Virus record (IMG/VR): IMGVR_UViG_3300023284_000930
Coordinates: 1-40,113 of that record
Direction: 5' to 3' (one strand)
Source of the DNA: a virus
DNA: 40,113 nt
The notes below the pieces were generated by a model that made no database searches, had not been told where the DNA came from, and worked only from the letters and a program-made list of their open reading frames with translations. Shown here one piece after another: positions 7,475 through 40,113 of this stretch; the stretch's first letter is position 1; every line of letters starts with the position of its first letter. The position numbers and the translations under genes were made by a program.

Positions 7475-9130
7475 TTAAGCAGCACCCTGGAGGAGCGCCG
7501 GATCTGCCTTCGATGCGTCAGCTGCAGCCTTGGCCTGGCCCTTGAGAGCCTCGAGCTGAGCAGCTGCCTGCTCCTTAGTGGCTCGGATCTCTCTGATGGT
7601 CTTCACCTGGTCTTCATTGTTCATGAAGTCCTCTGCCACTCCAGCATTCTCAGCCAGTTTGACGATGGCTTCCTCACTGATCCAGTCCACTGCGGCAGGC
7701 TGGAAGGCAAAGAGAAGCTCTGCCATCTGCAGGAATTCGAGGAAGTTCTTATTCTCCAGAGCTTTCATGGCCAGAGCCAGCTTTGAAGTCAGGTTCACTT
7801 GTGGAGCGATAACATGCTGAGATCCATCTGGGAGGATCCCAATAACGGACTCAGGTGCCTTGGGAAACTTCCCTTGTCTCAACAGGATATTGAATACCCG
7901 GAAGAGCACTGGATTAAATATCTCATGTCGGAGCCGGGCAAAGGTTGGACTGAAATTGATCAGCTTCTCTTCTCTGCGTTCAAGCACTTCAGTGGCAGTC
8001 ATCTGCCTCGTCACATTAGCTAGAGCCTCGAAGAGTTTCACATGGTAGGCTTCATTGATAAATTCTCTCATCACTTCAGCTCTGTCCTTGCCGATGTCAT
8101 ACCGTCCAGCAGTCGCCCATTCCTTAGGTATGGCCGCAGGGTTGTTCGGATCAAAGATGGTCACACCAGCACTCCGGAGATCTACATTCCCTTCCAGGTT
8201 GGACGGGATCAGAAATCTGGGAAATGCTGCGAGCTCGGCCAGAGCGTCCATATACTTCTCCAGGAGGTTGAGTGACCTAGTGATTGGCATGGCCAGGATG
8301 GATGGGCAGTAGCCGTATTCATGTTTTCCCCACCTCATGAACCTGGTCACAGCCACAGGATTCTCATCAAATCCGGAGTTTCTCAAAATCTTCTTGTTCT
8401 GCTTATCGATGTGGACTGAGGCCCATGGCTTCTGGTCTGCTCGCTTAGGTCCGGCCATCACATCAGATCGTGGAGTGATCCGGTGAATCACTGGAAATTT
8501 CCGATTCAGATCCTTGCCACCTTTATTGAAAGCTTCGCGAACAGTCTTTCCGACATTCTCGATGCCATACTTTTTGACGATGTTGCGAGCCGTCATTTCT
8601 GTGGTCTTCACAAATGTATCCACAGCCTTCTCATCATCTTCCTGAATCGAGTAGGTTCCAACTGTTTGGGATGTGAACCTCAAGCCAGTCCTTCGCTTGT
8701 TTTCTTCAGTCATGAGAGCGCCGGTCCCGAAGCCACCTCTGTCGAGAAAGCACTCATGGATCTCAAGGTCCCAGTTAGATTTGTTCAGCTCCCGGATGGA
8801 GATCTCGCCGCACTTTCGATACCAGGCTCGACCATCCTTGCCGATCTGTTCCCGGTGCTCTTCTGGAGCCTCATAGGTAAACCACTTGCCGCTGACCAGG
8901 AAGTCAAATGAGCCAGCTGCCAGTTTCATATTGGCCTGATTGGCTGTGATGTCATGGATGTTCTGAGTCCAGCCAAGGATGTCCGGAGTCTTTTCCTCCA
9001 GGATGTCTGACTTGGAGGGCATGACATATCGACTGATGTCCTGCCAGAGTGTGTCCCAAGTTGCGCGTTCCGCAGTCAGGAAGGCCTCAAGATCGATTGT
9101 CTCTTGAGCGAGTGATGTTGGAGCAGCCAT
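7475..9130 (-). CDS. Portal protein (T7-type head-tail connector)
   Basis: 551 residues, the usual length for the T7 gp8-type connector family. Visible features: N-terminal helix with ERATWDTLWQDISRYVMPSK, the segment AAGSFDFLVSGKWFTYEAPE, a central FMRWGKHEYGYCPSILAMPI typical of the connector wing, LNLLEKYMDALAELAAFP, and a later NVTRQMTATEVLERREEK with FARLRHEIFNPVLFRVF. It would form the dodecameric ring through which TerL pumps DNA, and it receives the tail adaptor. The start has a strong GGAGGAGG. Sits after terminase and before scaffold, as expected. Confidence 0.92.
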   Translation of the reverse strand: MAAPTSLAQETIDLEAFLTAERATWDTLWQDISRYVMPSKSDILEEKTPDILGWTQNIHDITANQANMKLAAGSFDFLVSGKWFTYEAPEEHREQIGKDGRAWYRKCGEISIRELNKSNWDLEIHECFLDRGGFGTGALMTEENKRRTGLRFTSQTVGTYSIQEDDEKAVDTFVKTTEMTARNIVKKYGIENVGKTVREAFNKGGKDLNRKFPVIHRITPRSDVMAGPKRADQKPWASVHIDKQNKKILRNSGFDENPVAVTRFMRWGKHEYGYCPSILAMPITRSLNLLEKYMDALAELAAFPRFLIPSNLEGNVDLRSAGVTIFDPNNPAAIPKEWATAGRYDIGKDRAEVMREFINEAYHVKLFEALANVTRQMTATEVLERREEKLINFSPTFARLRHEIFNPVLFRVFNILLRQGKFPKAPESVIGILPDGSQHVIAPQVNLTSKLALAMKALENKNFLEFLQMAELLFAFQPAAVDWISEEAIVKLAENAGVAEDFMNNEDQVKTIREIRATKEQAAAQLEALKGQAKAAADASKADPALLQGAA

Positions 9131-15798: not shown

Positions 15799-16101
15799 TT
15801 ATACTTTGATCCCCAGCTCCTCCAAGATCCTGAGAACAGCCTGCCTGATGGATTTGGCATAGGCAGGGATCTGCTCAGCAAATTCTTTATCGTCGAAAAC
15901 TCTGACAGATGAGTCGTGGTTCCAATGATACAAATCTCCTTTGATGACACAGCCGCAATGTGGTACCAGGTCATAATTGTATTCGGGTGCAACTCTGGCA
16001 CTTACCGCAATATCGTCAATAGGCAGGCCGTTGAGCTGAGACTCTACCTCGGCAGTCAGGTCCAGGAGGAGTTGGTCTGGGGTTCTGGTTTCTTCAATCA
16101 T
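15799..16101 (-). CDS. First gene of the leftward operon, unknown
   Basis: 100 residues: N-terminal helix (TPDQLLLDLTAEVESQLNG), a middle with VPHCGCVIKGDLYHWNHDSS, and a C-terminal helix (EFAEQIPAYAKSIRQAVLRI). The Cys/His cluster is too small to call a zinc site with confidence. The leader is A/T-rich (TTTTTAAAAGTCAGAAATA) without a Shine-Dalgarno sequence. The stop codon sits in an AAAGTATAA motif that recurs elsewhere in the window. Confidence 0.55.
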   Translation of the reverse strand: MIEETRTPDQLLLDLTAEVESQLNGLPIDDIAVSARVAPEYNYDLVPHCGCVIKGDLYHWNHDSSVRVFDDKEFAEQIPAYAKSIRQAVLRILEELGIKV

Positions 16102-16311
16102 TATTTCTGACTTTTAAAAATATTCATACGTAACTTTTCACAACCTCCCTACCCTCCATTAGAAAAACTAATGCAAGCCAAGGAGTAACCTCCTGGAGAC
16201 TTTGATCCGGCTCGCCTCCAACAGGATGGTTCGTTTCCTCCACATCCCGCCTACTGTAAGCCATAGGAGCCTTTTGGCCGGAAGCTACGGATGGATCCGG
16301 AACTCCACCCG

Positions 16312-16347
16312 GACATAAAGAAACCCGGCAGGTGTGCTCTGTCGGGT
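16312..16347 (-). terminator. Candidate attenuator in leader of leftward operon
   Basis: Nine-pair stem ACCCGACAG / CTGCCGGGT on the minus strand (one G-U pair), 7-nt loop, followed by TTCTTTATG. It lies about 220 bases before the first leftward gene, with no leftward gene upstream of it, so if it works it would attenuate the leader transcript. The T tract is interrupted, hence the modest confidence. Confidence 0.4.
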
Positions 16348-16470
16348 CTCAAAATGGTAGTGGTTTCCCATCCACCGTAAATTGGTTTTTCCTTCGAAGC
16401 ACACTCGTGGAATTGCTCACGACGATGTTCTCCGAGGAGCCGATGTCAAATCAAAATGAGAGAGAAGATG

Positions 16471-16512
16471 CCTGGTGGGATCTCACTCCACCAGGACTTT
16501 CCTAAAGTATAA
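16471..16512 (+). promoter_or_regulatory. Hairpin-leader element, copy 1 (divergent copy)
   Basis: Perfect 8-bp stem CCTGGTGG/CCACCAGG around a 9-nt loop GATCTCACT, then ACTTT and CCTAAAGTATAA. It shares the 9-nt loop with TCTCA and the downstream CCTAAAGTA with copies 2 and 3, but no start codon follows within 50 bases. It might be the ancestral copy of a lost gene leader. Confidence 0.55.
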
Positions 16513-16623
16513 CCTTCTCAATCGAGGCCAGGATCCTCAGTGAGCTGGTTTTTCAACACAAGAGAAAAATGTTTGGTTTAGTGCTTGCATCTTATTAGAT
16601 ACCTGCTCCTATTTACTATTCTC

Positions 16624-16665
16624 ACCTCGTGATCTCATCGAGGTAAACCTAAAGTAAACATTGTT
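16624..16665 (+). promoter_or_regulatory. Hairpin-leader element, copy 2
   Basis: Stem ACCTCG/CGAGGT (6 bp), loop TGATCTCAT (9 nt), then AAACCTAAAGTA and 9 more bases to the ATG at 16666: 21 bases between stem and start. No Shine-Dalgarno sequence. Compare copy 3: three of the six pairs differ and all three changes keep pairing, which supports a selected RNA structure. Confidence 0.7.
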
Positions 16666-16863
16666 ATGACCATTGACCAAAGAATCGAAAAGCTCGAAGA
16701 AGAAATGAATGAAGTTCAGTGTGACATCCGAGATGTAAACCAGGAACTGTCATTCGATCAGGAAGACTTTAAAGACCGACAGGCTTTGATCACTCAACGG
16801 GAAAAGCTTTACCGTCGAGACACTATTATTTGTAACAAGCTCCAAGAGCTCGACTATGCTTAA
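16666..16863 (+). CDS. Small coiled-coil early protein
   Basis: 65 residues, entirely charged and helical (MTIDQRIEKLEEEMNEVQCD; FDQEDFKDRQALITQREKLY), a clear coiled coil. First gene of the rightward operon. Its start has no Shine-Dalgarno sequence and is preceded by hairpin-leader copy 2, so expression is probably controlled through that structure. Function unknown; coiled-coil early proteins are often host-takeover factors, but this is speculation. Confidence 0.6.
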   Translation: MTIDQRIEKLEEEMNEVQCDIRDVNQELSFDQEDFKDRQALITQREKLYRRDTIICNKLQELDYA

Positions 16864-16874
16864 TCCTCTTTCTC

Positions 16875-16916
16875 TCCCTGTGTTCTCATCAGGGAAAACC
16901 TAAAGTATAAACCAAT
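16875..16916 (+). promoter_or_regulatory. Hairpin-leader element, copy 3
   Basis: Stem TCCCTG/CAGGGA (6 bp), loop TGTTCTCAT (9 nt), then AAACCTAAAGTATAAACCAAT and ATG at 16917; again exactly 21 bases between stem and start. Differs from copy 2 by three compensatory pair changes and one loop base. Confidence 0.72.
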
Positions 16917-17213
16917 ATGAATACAGTTCACAAAACCACTCACACTGACGGACCCTGGTCCACTAACAACGCAACCATTTATGGTCCATCGCGAAATGGT
17001 TTGGCTACTCCAATTGCGGTCACACAGATTTGCGACAATGTAACGGACAGGTCAAGAGTGTCCAACGCACGCCTAATAGCCGCCGCACCTGAGCTACTGA
17101 AAGCATTGGAGAATCTTGAAAGATTCTACGCAAACGACATTAGGCGATTTTCAAACAACGCTTGGGATGAGATAGTTCATGCCATCGCCAAGGCCAAGGA
17201 GGATTCAGCATGA
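16917..17213 (+). CDS. Conserved small phage protein (NARLIAAAPELL type)
   Basis: 98 residues. Contains SNARLIAAAPELLKALENLE (about 61-80), a signature of a small protein family found in many phages and prophages, generally of unknown function. The N-terminus is polar (THTDGPWSTNNATIYGPS), as usual in that family. Preceded by hairpin-leader copy 3. Its last codons overlap the next ATG. I recognise the family from the motif only. Confidence 0.75.
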   Translation: MNTVHKTTHTDGPWSTNNATIYGPSRNGLATPIAVTQICDNVTDRSRVSNARLIAAAPELLKALENLERFYANDIRRFSNNAWDEIVHAIAKAKEDSA

Positions 17214-17464
17214 ACACAGTCACATCAAAAGACAAAGAGTTCGAGGCCATGGTGGCTCCAACTGAAAATCTGGCCTATGAAAACCTCAAGGCCACCATTG
17301 ATCTCGCTGGGCACAAAGTGCTCATGCCACGACTGATCATCACTGGAGGACCCAATGTTTCTATTAGATATATGGTCAAAAGCATCCAGCTGGATGAGCA
17401 GGGCGTTGCCTTGGAGATCGAGCCTGCCATCCTGCAGCCAGTGGAAGAGGAGGTCTCATCATGA
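17210..17464 (+). CDS. Unknown small protein
   Basis: 84 residues: helical start (MNTVTSKDKEFEAMVAPTEN), then alternating strands (HKVLMPRLIITGGPNVSIRY; IQLDEQGVALEIEPAIL) and an acidic end. A strong AAGGAGG lies eight bases before the ATG, which overlaps the preceding stop. Function unknown. Confidence 0.6.
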   Translation: MNTVTSKDKEFEAMVAPTENLAYENLKATIDLAGHKVLMPRLIITGGPNVSIRYMVKSIQLDEQGVALEIEPAILQPVEEEVSS

Positions 17465-17775
17465 GCACTTTCACAGCGGATGTTATGCAGTTCCTCCTTC
17501 CAGGTGGCAGACAAAGGCCAATGACAGTGCCTCTCCCTGAATCTGTCTATGAGGCCTATGAAGAGATGGTCTCCTCAGGCTGCAGGTTTGAGGCTGAGAT
17601 CCTTGGCAATGGCATTGTCAGTGTGACCATCAGCAATGATGAGGCTGACCTGGATCTCCAGCTCAGTGGCAATGGCCCTGGAGATGTTACTCCAGCTACC
17701 AACCTAGAGAATATGCTCAAGACTGGTGAGTGGAAGACGGTCCTGGAATGGATGAGGAAGGAGGTGGGGCCATGA
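17461..17775 (+). CDS. Unknown small protein
   Basis: 104 residues: MSTFTADVMQFLLPGGRQRP, a helix (ESVYEAYEEMVSSGC), strands (FEAEILGNGIVSVTISND), and a C-terminal helix with VLEWMRKEVG. Start overlaps the previous stop (ATGA) with GAGGAGG upstream. Not recognised. Confidence 0.6.
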   Translation: MSTFTADVMQFLLPGGRQRPMTVPLPESVYEAYEEMVSSGCRFEAEILGNGIVSVTISNDEADLDLQLSGNGPGDVTPATNLENMLKTGEWKTVLEWMRKEVGP

Positions 17776-34058: not shown

Positions 34059-34939
34059 GGTAAGAAGATGAAGGATGCAGGAGAAGTGGCCTTAATATCT
34101 GTAATAAGAATTTTCAATGTAACGTTTTGAGTCGAAGTAAGTAAAGATCCATCAAGAGTGACATTTAGATCCTTCCCTAATGGCCCCACATTAAGACCCA
34201 CTTTTTCTGTTCCATTTTTTCCTGAGTCGAAGTCACGTATAAGATTAAGAACTAGAGTTGAATCAGCAGCGACATTAATGACAAAGTAACGCTGCATTCT
34301 ATAGTAACCCAGTTCAGTTATTGCATGAAGCTCCAACTGGATCGAAGTATTAGTCGGCACAAACACTGTGATTGCTGGGCTCACTGAAGATGCAGCCGCC
34401 ACACTGTAGGTCCTGGATCCGGAAGAGAGGCTGGTGATTAAATCATCAAGGTCGATCAGCGTAAGGTTTCCGGCTGAATCAATCAGAAATCCTTTGTTTA
34501 GAGTCGCTGCCTTTGGAGGAAGAGCCTGTCCAACTGACTGGCTTGTGACTGGAAACTGAATACACCTGGCCAAATTCTCAGCAATCATTCCATTGATCAT
34601 GGTGAGCTTGTCCAGTGCCTGCTCATGAGTGGCAGCCGGGAAGCCGTCTCCTTCAATGTAGTCCACAATCTGAGTGATTGGAACCAGCCTGGTGATGACA
34701 ACGATCTGGCCTGAGACTCCGGCGACCATAGTGATGGATCCACCAAGTTCATTTCCAGCTCCAGTGACTGTGTAATCTGCAGGATTCGCCAGGATGGCTT
34801 CAGAACTGTCATTCACTGAATCCAGGGATTTGACCAGGAGGTGGGAGTCCTTCAGAAAAAAGAAAGGGACTGACAGTGTCTGGCCTGATCCAGTCAGGAC
34901 GTAAGGACCTGCAATGTGGGTGTCGGGTGATGTGCTCAT
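34055..34939 (-). CDS. Tail fibre anchor protein (T7 gp17 N-terminal-like)
   Basis: 294 residues. The N-terminal 170 residues match the T7 tail-fibre N-terminal domain: YVLTGSGQTLSVPFFFLKDS, LANPADYTVTGAGNELGGSI, VVITRLVPITQIVDYIEGDG and AATHEQALDKLTMINGMIAE. This domain fixes fibres to the tail. The C-terminal 100 residues (ITVFVPTNTSIQLELHAITE onward) form a small beta domain instead of a long shaft or receptor tip, so it is a short adaptor. SD AAGGAG upstream. Adjacent secreted fibre genes may supply the binding parts. Confidence 0.85.
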   Translation of the reverse strand: MSTSPDTHIAGPYVLTGSGQTLSVPFFFLKDSHLLVKSLDSVNDSSEAILANPADYTVTGAGNELGGSITMVAGVSGQIVVITRLVPITQIVDYIEGDGFPAATHEQALDKLTMINGMIAENLARCIQFPVTSQSVGQALPPKAATLNKGFLIDSAGNLTLIDLDDLITSLSSGSRTYSVAAASSVSPAITVFVPTNTSIQLELHAITELGYYRMQRYFVINVAADSTLVLNLIRDFDSGKNGTEKVGLNVGPLGKDLNVTLDGSLLTSTQNVTLKILITDIKATSPASFIFLP

Positions 34940-37900
34940 TTGTTTTCTTGCTCCTTCTCGAATTTTTTGACCATGGCTTTCAGCTGGCCTCTGGTTGCTG
35001 TTTTGTCGGTGGCGTGTTTAGAGTATTCAATCATATTGGACTCAATCAGGTTGCGGACTTCTCTCTTCTTGGATCTGTTGGCAAGTTGCCTGAGTCCAGA
35101 CAGGTATCTGACCGCATCAGTGAGAATCAGCCTATTTGCTCTCTGCTCTGGAGTCTCCTCTTGTCGGTCTGATCTCTGGATTTTGATGGCCTCACCATAC
35201 TGATCATAAAGCTTGTCGATCGATTTGGGTGAGAATGGTTGCCCGTCACGTTGGAAGAGCCTGCCAAAAGCTGGGATGTCGGCAGGCTGCCAATCTGCTT
35301 TAATGGCATCCTCTCCGCCAAGCTCTCCTCTTCCCAGGAGTGCTACCACATCCAAGGCCACTCCACCTCCTACTGAGCGGATGGCGAAGTCCAGCTTTCT
35401 GGGACTCACCTTGATCAATTTGCCAAGTTCGATGGATAGGGTGGTTGTGAATGGTGAAAATTGCTCCTCTGCAAATAGGTCCTCTTGGGATCTTGGAATG
35501 ATGGGAGTGTCAAAGAAGAAGTCTCTCTCAGCAGCAATCTCCTGAGCCAGGCCAGGAAGTACTGGAAGGATGTCATTGATCGTGCCTTGCAGTCCTCTGG
35601 AGAAAGTGAGGTCCACTGGTCCCAGCTGGCTGAGCCATTCTCTGAACCATCGTCCTGCAGTTGCTGGATCCTTCTGATACCAGGCATCGGCCATGGCTTC
35701 TGCTCCAGCCATGAACAGTCCATCTGCCTCAAAAGCTCTTGGGATCCGGATAAGCTCATCGCCCACCTGAATGTAGGTGTAAAGGTATCTCTCATCTTCA
35801 TCCATCTCCAGCCACCATTCCTCATCCTTGTGGAGCCACCAGGCAATCAGAGCCAGAGCACTGGCCTGCATTCCTCTCCAGGCAAACTTGATTGGATTGC
35901 GCTTGGCTGCTTCGATGTGAGCCTTCGGTCCTTGGATGGCTGCATTAAAGAAAGGGACTGCCATGTTGATCTTCCTGGCAATTCGGCCTGACCTGGTGAA
36001 GTCAGTGGTCACTCTCTTTCCGGCCAGCCTGAGATAGTCCACCTGGTGAGTATCGATTGGCGCTGCTGGATCAATCCCTTGCTCTTGAGCCAGGAGCTTG
36101 ATCTCAGTCAACCTGGCAGCTGACTCGGTAAATTGTAAGAGCTGTTTGGCCACATCCAGAGAGTTACCAGGTAGAGCCTTGATGGTCTTCCACTTGGTTT
36201 CACGAGTGAATCGTTTGCCACCCATCTTGACCACTGCAGCTGATCTTCTCAGGGAGAGGCCATCCTGTTGGAGAGGCTGAGCCATCTTCACTCCCATCCG
36301 GTCAAACATATTGATCCACTCAGTGGAGTATCTACCACCTGACACAGCATTGAAAAGGAGCTGCGTGACCTGTCTCATCCACTCTAGAAATAGTCTGCCA
36401 GTATTGGCCTGAGCCTGGCTGTTTTTGTGGAGTACTGAAAAATCCCTAAGAGGATTGCTGATGATGGAAAATCCAGCATTGAGGCCAGTCGTTCCAAGTC
36501 GGAAGGCCTGAGCAGGTTTTGTGAAGAAGAGATCTCCCACCAGACCAAGGCTCTGTTTGTCCATACCATTGAGAGCTTCCCACAGGTCGGGATCCAGCTC
36601 CCACCATTGGACTTTACCTTGTCGAAAGATCGGCATCACTGGAGTCTCATTCTGGCTCCCAGGCATGATGGCTGGAGCAAATACAATATGCATCATTCCT
36701 TCAGCTGCTTCCACAGCGTCATCAATCACCTCCTGAGCCAGGTCTGTGTCCACTCCATTGGCCTCCATAAAGCTTTCGACCATACTCCAGGTCTTCTGGA
36801 TCATTTCATCCACTCGGATCTTTCCACTGACAATCATGTCCCTTGGAACCTTGACTGCCAGCGATCCCAGTCCAGGAACTGTGGATGCAAGTTTGATTAT
36901 CTGCTCCACAATTCTCACCTGGTCAGCTTTGAGGACCATCTTCTTGGCCTGAGCCAGGGAGCTCTCCACCGGATCCTTGATCCTCCTGGTGGAGCCTCTC
37001 AGCTTTTTAACGATGTCCTTTCCGGTGATTCCTGTTCCACCACCAATGGCCTTGGTCACAGTCTCGAATTCACGTTGCAATGGAAGATAGAAGCCCGGAT
37101 CCACCTCACGGATCTTCTCCACACCTTCCAGCATCGATGGAGCAGCCTGAGCCACGTAGTCAAGGACGCCGTTGTGCCAGTCATAGAACCTCTGAGCAGC
37201 CAGCTCGAAATTGGGAGTCTGGGTAAATTCTTCGATGATGTTCTGAGCATCCTTCACATCCAGACCTGAAGCTCTGGATCCTCTTGGATCTGTCGCCAGT
37301 GCCATGGTTCTCTTGGCATAGAGGAAGACAATGAACTCTGTCACTTTCCCCTGGACCAGGCTGAAGGTTTCACTGAGTGGTCGACCAACTCTGTTTCCAG
37401 CATAGTCGAGCATGGAGGCCTCTGCCATCTGCTGAACAATCGCATCCACGGTCAGTCTCCTGGAGGATAGGCTGAGCATCGGATTCATCTCCTCGGAGAG
37501 GTTTCCTTTCTTCAAAGCCTCCTTCCAGAATTTATCTACAGCCACAGCGGAGTCGACAAAGTCTCTTTCCCAATTGGCCAGGCCTTTCTTGGTGGATTTG
37601 GTCCATCTCTGCAGAGCTCCTGGAGTTTCGACGATCGTGGCTTCTGCTCTTTTCCTGGATCCCTGCCTGAAGAAGGTTGTGCCTGCAATCTGAGCCTCCT
37701 GGATCTTGGCCTCCAATTCTGGGACAGTGTGAATCACCTCCTGAAACCACTTGGTGGTCTTGGGAGCTTTCTTCAAAGCCTGGTCAGGATCCTGAGTGAA
37801 TAGCCTGAAGAATTCAGCAAAGCCTTCTGAGCCATACTTATTGAAAGGCTCCTTTCTTATTCCATACAGGTCTCTTCCCAGAGGTATGAGTTCAGCGACC

Positions 37901-40113
37901 ACATTCCTTGGCATGTTCTTGTCCCTTTCCCAGATATGCATTCTGGTCCCGCCTCTCCTGAAGAGCGCATGGTCCAGAGCATGGCCAGCCTCATGAGCTG
38001 CAGTTGGCAGCATGTTGGAGGTCTGGATCCGGATAATCTCATTGTCCGGGTTGAAGAAACCATAAGCCTGCATCGCTGGATGGATGTGCTTGGCTCTGAT
38101 CGCTCCACCCTGTCCCATGGTGACCAGGATGTCAGTCAGGCTCTGAATGACCTCAGGACCGCTCACAGGTGCCGTAGGCTCCAGTCTGACCTTCTTCCCT
38201 CCAATGGTCACTTCCAAGGCCTCCTGCTTCTCTGTGTCGATCACAGTGGCAGCATTGAGCCTATTTCTTCCGAGTACTGAACCTTGCCTGTCAGACCGTC
38301 CCGGAGAGGTGAGCTCTTGAGCCACTTCTCCCAGGACTGAATCTCCCGCAATTGGTTGTGATCTGGTCCGATTCATTTCCACCTGGTCAGATGGTTGTGT
38401 GAAATTCTCGACTCCGTTGTCATCATACCACTGCTCTGATCTGGCAATGGCATCCTCCTGAGTGTTGAATAGCTCCGGATCCGCATCAGTGCTTGGATCC
38501 TGGAATTGCCACTGATCCACCTCACCTGATTCATTCCTCATAGGAGTGACCACAGGCTGAGCCAGGTTGCCTGGCCTCTGAGTGACTAGGTTCTCAGCAT
38601 GTTTCCCAAGAAATTCTTCTACAGACACACCTTTCTCCAGTGCTTCCTGGATCTTGGAGTCCAACTCATTCAGATTCACACTCTGTTTCAGAGCAGCGAT
38701 CTGCTTCGCCAGGGTTGGCTCTGCCAGGATGTCAGCGACCACATCTGTTCCCAGGAAGAGATCCAGGGATCCGTCCTGCATCTGAGCGATGAAGCCTTTC
38801 TGGATGCTCTTGGTCATCACATGAGCATTTCCACCACCGATCAGAGCGAGTGGCAGCACAGCCATGGCGATGTCCGGAGCTGTCTTCAGAGTATCCTTGA
38901 GCTTCTCTGAGAGGTCTGCTCCAGGAATGTCCTCATCAAAGGCAGCAAAAACCTGCCTGGTCAGATCAGCTGAGAAGTCCTGAGCCATCTCAGTAAGAGT
39001 CTCAACTCCCAGGAGGCCAGCTGTTGTCTTTAAGGCTGAGAGTGAGGCTGAATTGAAACCTCCACCTCTCCAATTTTTGACCAATCGACCGACAGCCGGA
39101 AGCCTGGAAGTGACCAAACCAAGAGAAAAGGATTCCAGGACAGATGCCACGGATCCGCTGATCTCTGAAATGTTATATGCAGCACCCAGATCCAACTCCG
39201 GATTTTCCTGGATGAGCTTTGCAAAGTGTTCTGCCTTTAGTGGAGCAGTCATGGCCAATGTGCTCACGGTGTGTCCCGCTAGCCTGGCTGCAGTCTTCTG
39301 ACTCAGTCCGACTATTGGAGCTGCTCTGACTCCCATGCCTTTGCCTAAGGAGAAGGCTGCCACATAGTAGGCCATGTCAGCGGTCATCTGGACAGCCGGG
39401 AAGATCATCTTCTCTGCCATGGCCTTGAGGACCTTATTCTCAATGTCATCGGCTTCCATAACCCGGCCAGTTATGAAGTTCTGGACATCCACAATGGTCT
39501 TGGCGAAATCCCCAGCCTTCTGAGCTGCATCATACAGCTTGGCCTTCTGCTCCGGTGTGGCTGTCCGGTAAAAGGGAATGATAGAGAATGCCTCTGTCTG
39601 GGATGCTCCCAGATTGCCAAGTTCCTGAAGTGTGCTCTGTGGATCCTCAATAAAATTGGGTCCAATCTGGATGTCCTTTCCAGCCATGATCAGATTCATG
39701 TTGAAGGCTGCAGCATTGACCAGCTGCCCGGCTCCCTGGCCGGTCACTTCTCTGAAAATGGATTTTACACGGTCAGTGAATACCTGAAGGATGTCAGTGT
39801 CAGTCTCCAGATTCTGCTCCATATAGGTCAGAGCCAGTGGCCGGAGTGCAGGATCCACAGCCTGGAGGGCTGTAACAGCTGCGAAAAATAAGGATCCGGA
39901 TGGCTCAGCCTGGATGCCTCCAGGTCTTTGATTGATAATGGAGAGCCTGTGCTCTTCCAATCGTTCCTCTCTGGTTTTTGGCTGTATCGCCTTGCTCATC
40001 TTCTCAGCCACTTCGTCAAATTGCTCCTGGTTGTCCTCATATACTGCTCTGGCCTCACTGAAGGCTTCATTGTAGAAATTGCCCAGCTCCTCTGGAACCT
40101 CTCTTCCTCCGAG
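34936..40113 (-). CDS. Giant ejection (polyvalent) protein with HExxH motif, N-terminus outside window
   Basis: At least 1,725 codons: open to the right edge, with a GTG at 40011 that is not a necessary start. Numbering from that GTG, HEAGHALDH (673-681) is an HExxH zinc-metalloprotease core and EGFAEFF (729-735) fits the third ligand of gluzincin or lethal-factor-like enzymes. Near 1340-1470 the region with VPFFNAAIQGPKAHIEAAKR and WWLEMDEDERYLYTYIQVGD resembles LPD38 of phage polyvalent proteins. It occupies the place of T7 gp16-type internal core proteins, which are ejected into the host. C-terminus is basic. Upstream parts, possibly a lytic transglycosylase, are not visible. Confidence 0.8.
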   Translation of the reverse strand, partial: LGGREVPEELGNFYNEAFSEARAVYEDNQEQFDEVAEKMSKAIQPKTREERLEEHRLSIINQRPGGIQAEPSGSLFFAAVTALQAVDPALRPLALTYMEQNLETDTDILQVFTDRVKSIFREVTGQGAGQLVNAAAFNMNLIMAGKDIQIGPNFIEDPQSTLQELGNLGASQTEAFSIIPFYRTATPEQKAKLYDAAQKAGDFAKTIVDVQNFITGRVMEADDIENKVLKAMAEKMIFPAVQMTADMAYYVAAFSLGKGMGVRAAPIVGLSQKTAARLAGHTVSTLAMTAPLKAEHFAKLIQENPELDLGAAYNISEISGSVASVLESFSLGLVTSRLPAVGRLVKNWRGGGFNSASLSALKTTAGLLGVETLTEMAQDFSADLTRQVFAAFDEDIPGADLSEKLKDTLKTAPDIAMAVLPLALIGGGNAHVMTKSIQKGFIAQMQDGSLDLFLGTDVVADILAEPTLAKQIAALKQSVNLNELDSKIQEALEKGVSVEEFLGKHAENLVTQRPGNLAQPVVTPMRNESGEVDQWQFQDPSTDADPELFNTQEDAIARSEQWYDDNGVENFTQPSDQVEMNRTRSQPIAGDSVLGEVAQELTSPGRSDRQGSVLGRNRLNAATVIDTEKQEALEVTIGGKKVRLEPTAPVSGPEVIQSLTDILVTMGQGGAIRAKHIHPAMQAYGFFNPDNEIIRIQTSNMLPTAAHEAGHALDHALFRRGGTRMHIWERDKNMPRNVVAELIPLGRDLYGIRKEPFNKYGSEGFAEFFRLFTQDPDQALKKAPKTTKWFQEVIHTVPELEAKIQEAQIAGTTFFRQGSRKRAEATIVETPGALQRWTKSTKKGLANWERDFVDSAVAVDKFWKEALKKGNLSEEMNPMLSLSSRRLTVDAIVQQMAEASMLDYAGNRVGRPLSETFSLVQGKVTEFIVFLYAKRTMALATDPRGSRASGLDVKDAQNIIEEFTQTPNFELAAQRFYDWHNGVLDYVAQAAPSMLEGVEKIREVDPGFYLPLQREFETVTKAIGGGTGITGKDIVKKLRGSTRRIKDPVESSLAQAKKMVLKADQVRIVEQIIKLASTVPGLGSLAVKVPRDMIVSGKIRVDEMIQKTWSMVESFMEANGVDTDLAQEVIDDAVEAAEGMMHIVFAPAIMPGSQNETPVMPIFRQGKVQWWELDPDLWEALNGMDKQSLGLVGDLFFTKPAQAFRLGTTGLNAGFSIISNPLRDFSVLHKNSQAQANTGRLFLEWMRQVTQLLFNAVSGGRYSTEWINMFDRMGVKMAQPLQQDGLSLRRSAAVVKMGGKRFTRETKWKTIKALPGNSLDVAKQLLQFTESAARLTEIKLLAQEQGIDPAAPIDTHQVDYLRLAGKRVTTDFTRSGRIARKINMAVPFFNAAIQGPKAHIEAAKRNPIKFAWRGMQASALALIAWWLHKDEEWWLEMDEDERYLYTYIQVGDELIRIPRAFEADGLFMAGAEAMADAWYQKDPATAGRWFREWLSQLGPVDLTFSRGLQGTINDILPVLPGLAQEIAAERDFFFDTPIIPRSQEDLFAEEQFSPFTTTLSIELGKLIKVSPRKLDFAIRSVGGGVALDVVALLGRGELGGEDAIKADWQPADIPAFGRLFQRDGQPFSPKSIDKLYDQYGEAIKIQRSDRQEETPEQRANRLILTDAVRYLSGLRQLANRSKKREVRNLIESNMIEYSKHATDKTATRGQLKAMVKKFEKEQENK

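Follow-up and report, generated by a model that had tools for sequence, protein, structure and literature searches.

A repeated hairpin leader, probably a cis-acting RNA element, precedes two adjacent early genes of an uncultured podovirus

Introduction

The operator of phage T4 gene 43 combines an upstream hairpin, with a loop conserved in both T4 and RB69, and a sequence overlapping the ribosome binding site (PMC3014915). The element described here resembles the T4 and RB69 operators in that an upstream hairpin with a conserved loop is combined with a single-stranded sequence in the initiation region (PMC3014915). It differs from them in preceding two adjacent genes, neither of which is a DNA polymerase gene, and in lacking a Shine–Dalgarno (SD) sequence. 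The T4 gene 32 operator and the coat-protein hairpin of the RNA coliphages are likewise operators of phage translation at which RNA structure and sequence close to the start codon are recognised, whereas at the present locus no pseudoknot was seen, no sequence similarity to them was recognised and the leader is present in several copies. In the lambda nut site (boxA/boxB), too, an early operon begins with a hairpin and a linear motif, but here the order of the parts is reversed, no boxA was seen, a copy stands before each gene and the distance to the ATG is fixed.

SD-scarce translation is found in Bacteroidota and some Verrucomicrobiota, and upstream adenines are used in Bacteroidota (PMC10783764). 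Control of early translation by the element would yield a small RNA switch, amenable to testing, from a clade of uncultured phages, and a route to an RNA-binding factor. The element is also relevant to how phages begin translation in hosts that seldom rely on SD pairing. Were it a processing site, it would account for the separate expression of two early genes on one transcript. Limited searching of the literature returned no description of the element.

Results

Phage identity and gene layout

The window, that is, the whole stretch of DNA that was analysed, is the IMG/VR virus record IMGVR_UViG_3300023284_000930 (40113 bases), from an uncultured podovirus. Comparison of the portal, terminase and capsid proteins placed it near the epsilon15-like and HTVC010P-like podoviruses, the nearest isolates showing ~28–38% identity in these proteins. 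The capsid query gave uncultured relatives with 68–77% capsid identity, and the terminase and portal queries gave distant relatives only. No relatives were found with the first early gene and the replication gene as queries, and DNA comparison of the window with isolated phages gave nothing convincing.

The late genes run leftward, and a rightward cluster starting at 16666 contains replication, exonuclease and RuvC-like genes. The hairpin copies occupy the 560 bp that separate these clusters and the first intergenic gap within the rightward one, where 53 nt lie between two same-strand genes and copy 3 is found. The features are as follows.

16471..16512, + strand: copy 1 (looser), 8-bp stem 16471–16478/16488–16495, with CCTAAAGTATAA at 16501–16512
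16574..16622, + strand: possible early-promoter stretch, proposed from the repeats of relatives; no clear sigma-70 promoter
16624..16644, + strand: copy 2 hairpin, ACCTCG-TGATCTCAT-CGAGGT
16645..16656, + strand: copy 2 single-stranded motif AAACCTAAAGTA, at –21 to –10 relative to the ATG at 16666
16666..16863, + strand: first early gene, encoding 65 aa without a family match; its ATG follows the stem of copy 2 by 21 nt
16875..16895, + strand: copy 3 hairpin, TCCCTG-TGTTCTCAT-CAGGGA, 11 nt past the stop codon of the first gene
16896..16907, + strand: copy 3 single-stranded motif AAACCTAAAGTA, before the ATG at 16917
16917..17213, + strand: second early gene, encoding 98 aa (phrog_1273); its ATG follows the stem of copy 3 by 21 nt

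Elsewhere in the window (34936–40011, minus strand) lies a gene for a large polyvalent phage protein of 1691 aa that is probably injected; it contains an LPD38 domain and the HExxH motif AHEAGHALDH.

Structure and covariation of the three copies

Copies 2 and 3, which are 251 nt apart and stand one before each gene, both have a perfect 6-bp stem, a 9-nt loop TG[AT]TCTCAT and then AAACCTAAAGTA, and in both the ATG follows the stem at exactly 21 nt. The final 9 nt before the ATG differ between them, while loop, linker and the 21-nt distance are constant. Copy 1 has the hairpin CCTGGTGG-GATCTCACT-CCACCAGG (16471–16495), with the loop GATCTCACT and the loop core ATCTCA, followed by ACTTT-CCTAAAGTATAA; there is no start codon at the expected distance and no gene behind it.

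Stem pairs 1, 4 and 5 differ on both sides between copies 2 and 3, and all remain Watson–Crick pairs. When the six stem substitutions were placed at random, six Watson–Crick pairs were kept with P = 7e-4 (P = 4e-3 with G-U allowed), a comparison of two close copies only. Since a MAFFT alignment of the three copies misplaces the copy 1 stem, the stems were compared at hand-set coordinates. These results agree with an earlier note on this DNA, which had described the stem, loop, tail and ATG distance of copies 2 and 3, three of six pairs that differ and yet still pair, and a copy 1 with an 8-bp stem, a 9-nt loop containing TCTCA and no start codon.

The nonamer CCTAAAGTA occurs three times in the window (0.31 expected), always on the + strand and within 410 nt. 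Each of the three sites has a perfect stem upstream, matched by 0.3–0.4% of shuffled upstream sequences; equally long stems at the same distance before the motif were found in 13, 20 and 22 of 5000 dinucleotide shuffles for the three copies. The predicted folding on its own is unremarkable, the folding energies of the hairpins being modestly below those of shuffles (z –1.3 to –2.0).

A covariance model built from copies 2 and 3 found only those two in the window, at 64–65 bits. The next match reached 12.5 bits, and neither the rest of the window nor another 55 loci gave a higher one. Because the model recovers copies 2 and 3 and fails to recover copy 1, the element in the window is described as two closely matching copies and a third, looser one.

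SD usage in this phage

The earlier note had also stated that neither start has an SD sequence, and this was confirmed by an SD duplex energy of –0.4 kcal/mol at both. With gene starts chosen by hand, 14/17 free-standing starts (first genes, or genes after gaps of at least 5 nt), that of the capsid gene included, were without SD, and the last 20 nt before free-standing starts were 42% A and 9% G. Among overlapping or adjacent starts 21/41 had an SD, a difference from the free-standing starts with Fisher P = 0.02. Because nearly all of the 14 free-standing genes without SD also lack a hairpin, a missing SD fails to single out the hairpin-led genes, and the suggestion of an SD-independent translation element is, on the same count, not specifically supported. 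The leaders of free-standing starts are A/C-rich and G-poor, for example AATAACCCAATAA; SD sequences are common at overlapping starts and rare at free-standing ones.

A leader hairpin in four relatives

The nonamer CCTAAAGTA was absent from the close relatives searched, and one match was found, in G030, which was reached through the portal search. Exact-motif scans of IMG/VR and GTDB genomes gave chance matches only, without a comparable hairpin, and an unbiased search of each locus for a repeated hairpin plus motif returned mostly chance pairs in GC-rich relatives.

In G009 and G021 the rightward early genes begin with a homologue of phrog_1273, which in the window follows copy 3. A leader hairpin stands before the first rightward early gene in four relatives (L008, L009, G009 and G021). 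The leaders of G009, G021 and L009 have a hairpin with the 9-nt loop NGTCACGAN, followed by TCCAGTCAC a few bases before the ATG. A model of these three leaders found the fourth case, L008, whose loop is CCTCACGAA (20 bits, E = 0.01), and this was confirmed by eye. The 9-nt loop of the four overall is NNTCACGAN, and the second motif, AGTCAC, stands a few bases before the ATG. The aligned leaders have five pairs changed on both sides, compared with 1.5 in shuffles (2/500 shuffles reach five), in an alignment that was fitted to the structure and comprises only four leaders and one partial fifth match outside the hairpin. Every slid control of this alignment gave 0 doubly changed pairs. This covariation is support rather than proof. 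The first genes vary, being phrog_1273 in G009 and G021 and others in L008 and L009, which indicates that the leader follows operon position and not one protein.

The relatives' leaders and the window element share a position before the first early gene or phrog_1273, a covarying stem, a 9-nt loop, an A/C-rich linker and an SD-less ATG, and in two relatives the hairpin precedes the same gene (phrog_1273) as copy 3. The window thus has the position, the covarying stem, the 9-nt loop and the SD-less ATG of the relatives' leader family. The sequences differ: the relatives have the loop NNTCACGAN and the tail TCCAGTCAC..ATG (AGTCAC only in L008), whereas the window has TG[AT]TCTCAT and AAACCTAAAGTA, and their stem, unlike that of the window, is longer and two-part with a 2-nt bulge (absent in L008). 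The relatives' covariance model (R1) scored at most 8.3 bits in window 16000–17500, off the hairpins. Common ancestry of the window and relatives' hairpins is plausible, if unproven. In the window, the cassette of hairpin and phrog_1273 comes second, preceded by a different gene with its own hairpin, as a duplication of the leader might produce. In L093 (G021), a possible further gene start with the tail motif TCCAGTCACGTCCATG and without a hairpin lies at 8194–8213 on the minus strand.

The earlier note had named further copies in related phages and covariation among the points on which its proposal would turn, and had suggested a covariance-model scan. The scan of related loci returned window copies 2 and 3 and no further copies in 55 loci, so that motif copies are, taken literally, absent from related phages; covariation, by contrast, was present.

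Discussion

A cis-acting RNA in early leaders, as the earlier note had proposed, is well supported by the comparisons above: the stem is free in sequence while pairing, loop, linker and distance are kept, and four relatives have a covarying hairpin of their own in the equivalent position. No Rfam 15 family reached the gathering threshold for the element, and relaxed Rfam searches gave only chance matches in the window, plus a tRNA in L083.

By analogy with the T4 gene 43 operator, the element may be a factor-binding operator at the initiation region, a reading that we favour tentatively and hold at somewhat below an even chance. A free stem, a fixed loop and tail, a fixed distance to the ATG and one copy per gene together make the build of a translational operator, and one copy per gene at a spacing of 251 nt suits a per-gene rather than a per-transcript function. 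The window element has the conserved-loop hairpin and the flanking single-stranded sequence of a gene 43-type operator; as for the regulated gene, neither of the two hairpin-led genes matched a polymerase family. In such an operator the stem would need only pairing, while the loop would be read by sequence, and the single-stranded motif after the hairpin would extend into the ribosome footprint upstream of the start codon. A factor bound to this motif, at –21 to –10 relative to the ATG, would come into contact with the 30S subunit. A trans-acting factor, either a phage or a host RNA-binding protein, might bind loop and tail, and its binding might switch initiation at each of the two early genes, in the manner of gp43 at its own operator in T4. 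A wider version, in which the window and the relatives carry a fast-changing family of early-leader hairpins in HTVC010P/epsilon15-like podoviruses, whose loop and tail would form an initiation signal, read by host or phage, that replaces the SD contact and marks early messages in hosts with many starts that lack an SD, is improbable.

The main rival, which we consider unlikely though less so than the others, is a 5′-end stabiliser or RNase processing site, in which the hairpin would mark or protect the 5′ end that each early message acquires through cleavage or initiation a short way upstream, and the A-rich tail would be the usual leader of this phage. It fits the position of copy 3 in the 53-nt gap between two same-strand genes, the A-rich, G-poor leaders general in this phage, and the relatives' hairpin, which follows promoter-like repeats by 18–22 nt and could lie close to a transcript start. 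A stabiliser would, however, have no need of an invariant loop and a 12-nt invariant tail, and no nuclease site of a known kind was seen. The per-gene copies, the distance to the ATG and the unconserved stem arms make an antitermination element or a promoter less likely. A nut- or put-like element, whose RNA would load an antitermination factor onto RNA polymerase, accounts for an element that heads the early operon whatever the gene, and its hairpin and linear motif resemble boxB plus boxA. Here, though, the hairpin comes first and the linear motif second, and no boxA-like sequence was seen by eye upstream of the hairpin in the window or the relatives (the boxA of the host may differ). Antitermination, moreover, needs neither a fixed ATG distance nor a copy before each of two genes, and no N- or Q-like protein was present among the proteins tested, so we give this explanation little credence.

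Alternatively, the element might act as double-stranded DNA, with TAAAGTATAA as the –10 for a message that has little or no leader and the inverted repeat as a repressor site. TATAAA and TAAACA do lie 5–6 nt before the ATG in copies 3 and 2, and leaderless messages lack an SD. A DNA-binding site would nevertheless conserve the dyad arms, which share no sequence among the copies and so argue against a double-stranded-DNA–protein operator; the spacing from loop motif to –10-like sequence is off by 5 nt in copy 1, and no + strand sigma-70 match was found in the region. The chances of this explanation are slim. With its three free-stemmed hairpins where the early genes begin, the window also recalls phage N4, whose virion RNA polymerase uses single-stranded-DNA hairpin promoters, three of them early; the loops of these are 3 nt long, compared with 9 nt here. 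No RNA polymerase was matched among the proteins tested, which were part of the ORFs and included the 1691-aa protein, with LPD38 as its only Pfam match, and an N4-like promoter is thus very improbable. The loop might instead act as a ribosome-contacting enhancer by pairing with the 16S rRNA segment GTCGTGAGAT near position 1066 in place of the SD contact. The loops of copies 1 and 2 (ATCTCAC, ATCTCA) and of three relatives (TCACGAC, TCACGA, CTCACGA) do map to the complement of this one near-universal segment. Each single match is nonetheless at chance level (20–77% of shuffled loops equal it), copy 3 has no match there, L009 matches in one of the two 16S sequences tested, and the pattern was found post hoc; loop–16S rRNA pairing, not above chance for single loops, was rejected and can hardly be the explanation.

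Other elements near the leader

In L008, L009 and L093 (G021), paired TGCAGGC or GCCTGC repeats ~22 nt apart lie 18–22 nt upstream of the leader hairpin and are possibly early-operon promoter or operator sites. Their counterpart in the window, GTGCTTGCATC..ATACCTGC, is a loose one. No intrinsic terminator (GC-rich stem plus T run) was found in 16050–17250. In the same intergenic gap, four relatives have a leftward intrinsic terminator and then a second conserved hairpin (L063 14855–14970; L083, L009 and L008 on the minus strand), whose inner loop on the early-gene strand is GTCTCC or GTTTCC and whose inner stem is TGCAA/TTGCA or TGTGA/TCACA. This arrangement recalls the lambda PR′–tR′ late leader, in that a leftward transcript would stop before the late genes unless antiterminated. 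Where the relatives have the leftward terminator, the window has a hairpin at 16323–16347, ACCCGGCAG-GTGTGCT-CTGTCGGGT, which read leftward has one A-C mismatch and the tail TTCTTTATG. The G021 intergenic gap also contains, in L083 (1884–1966), a tRNA gene identified by an Rfam match, on the strand opposite to the early genes.
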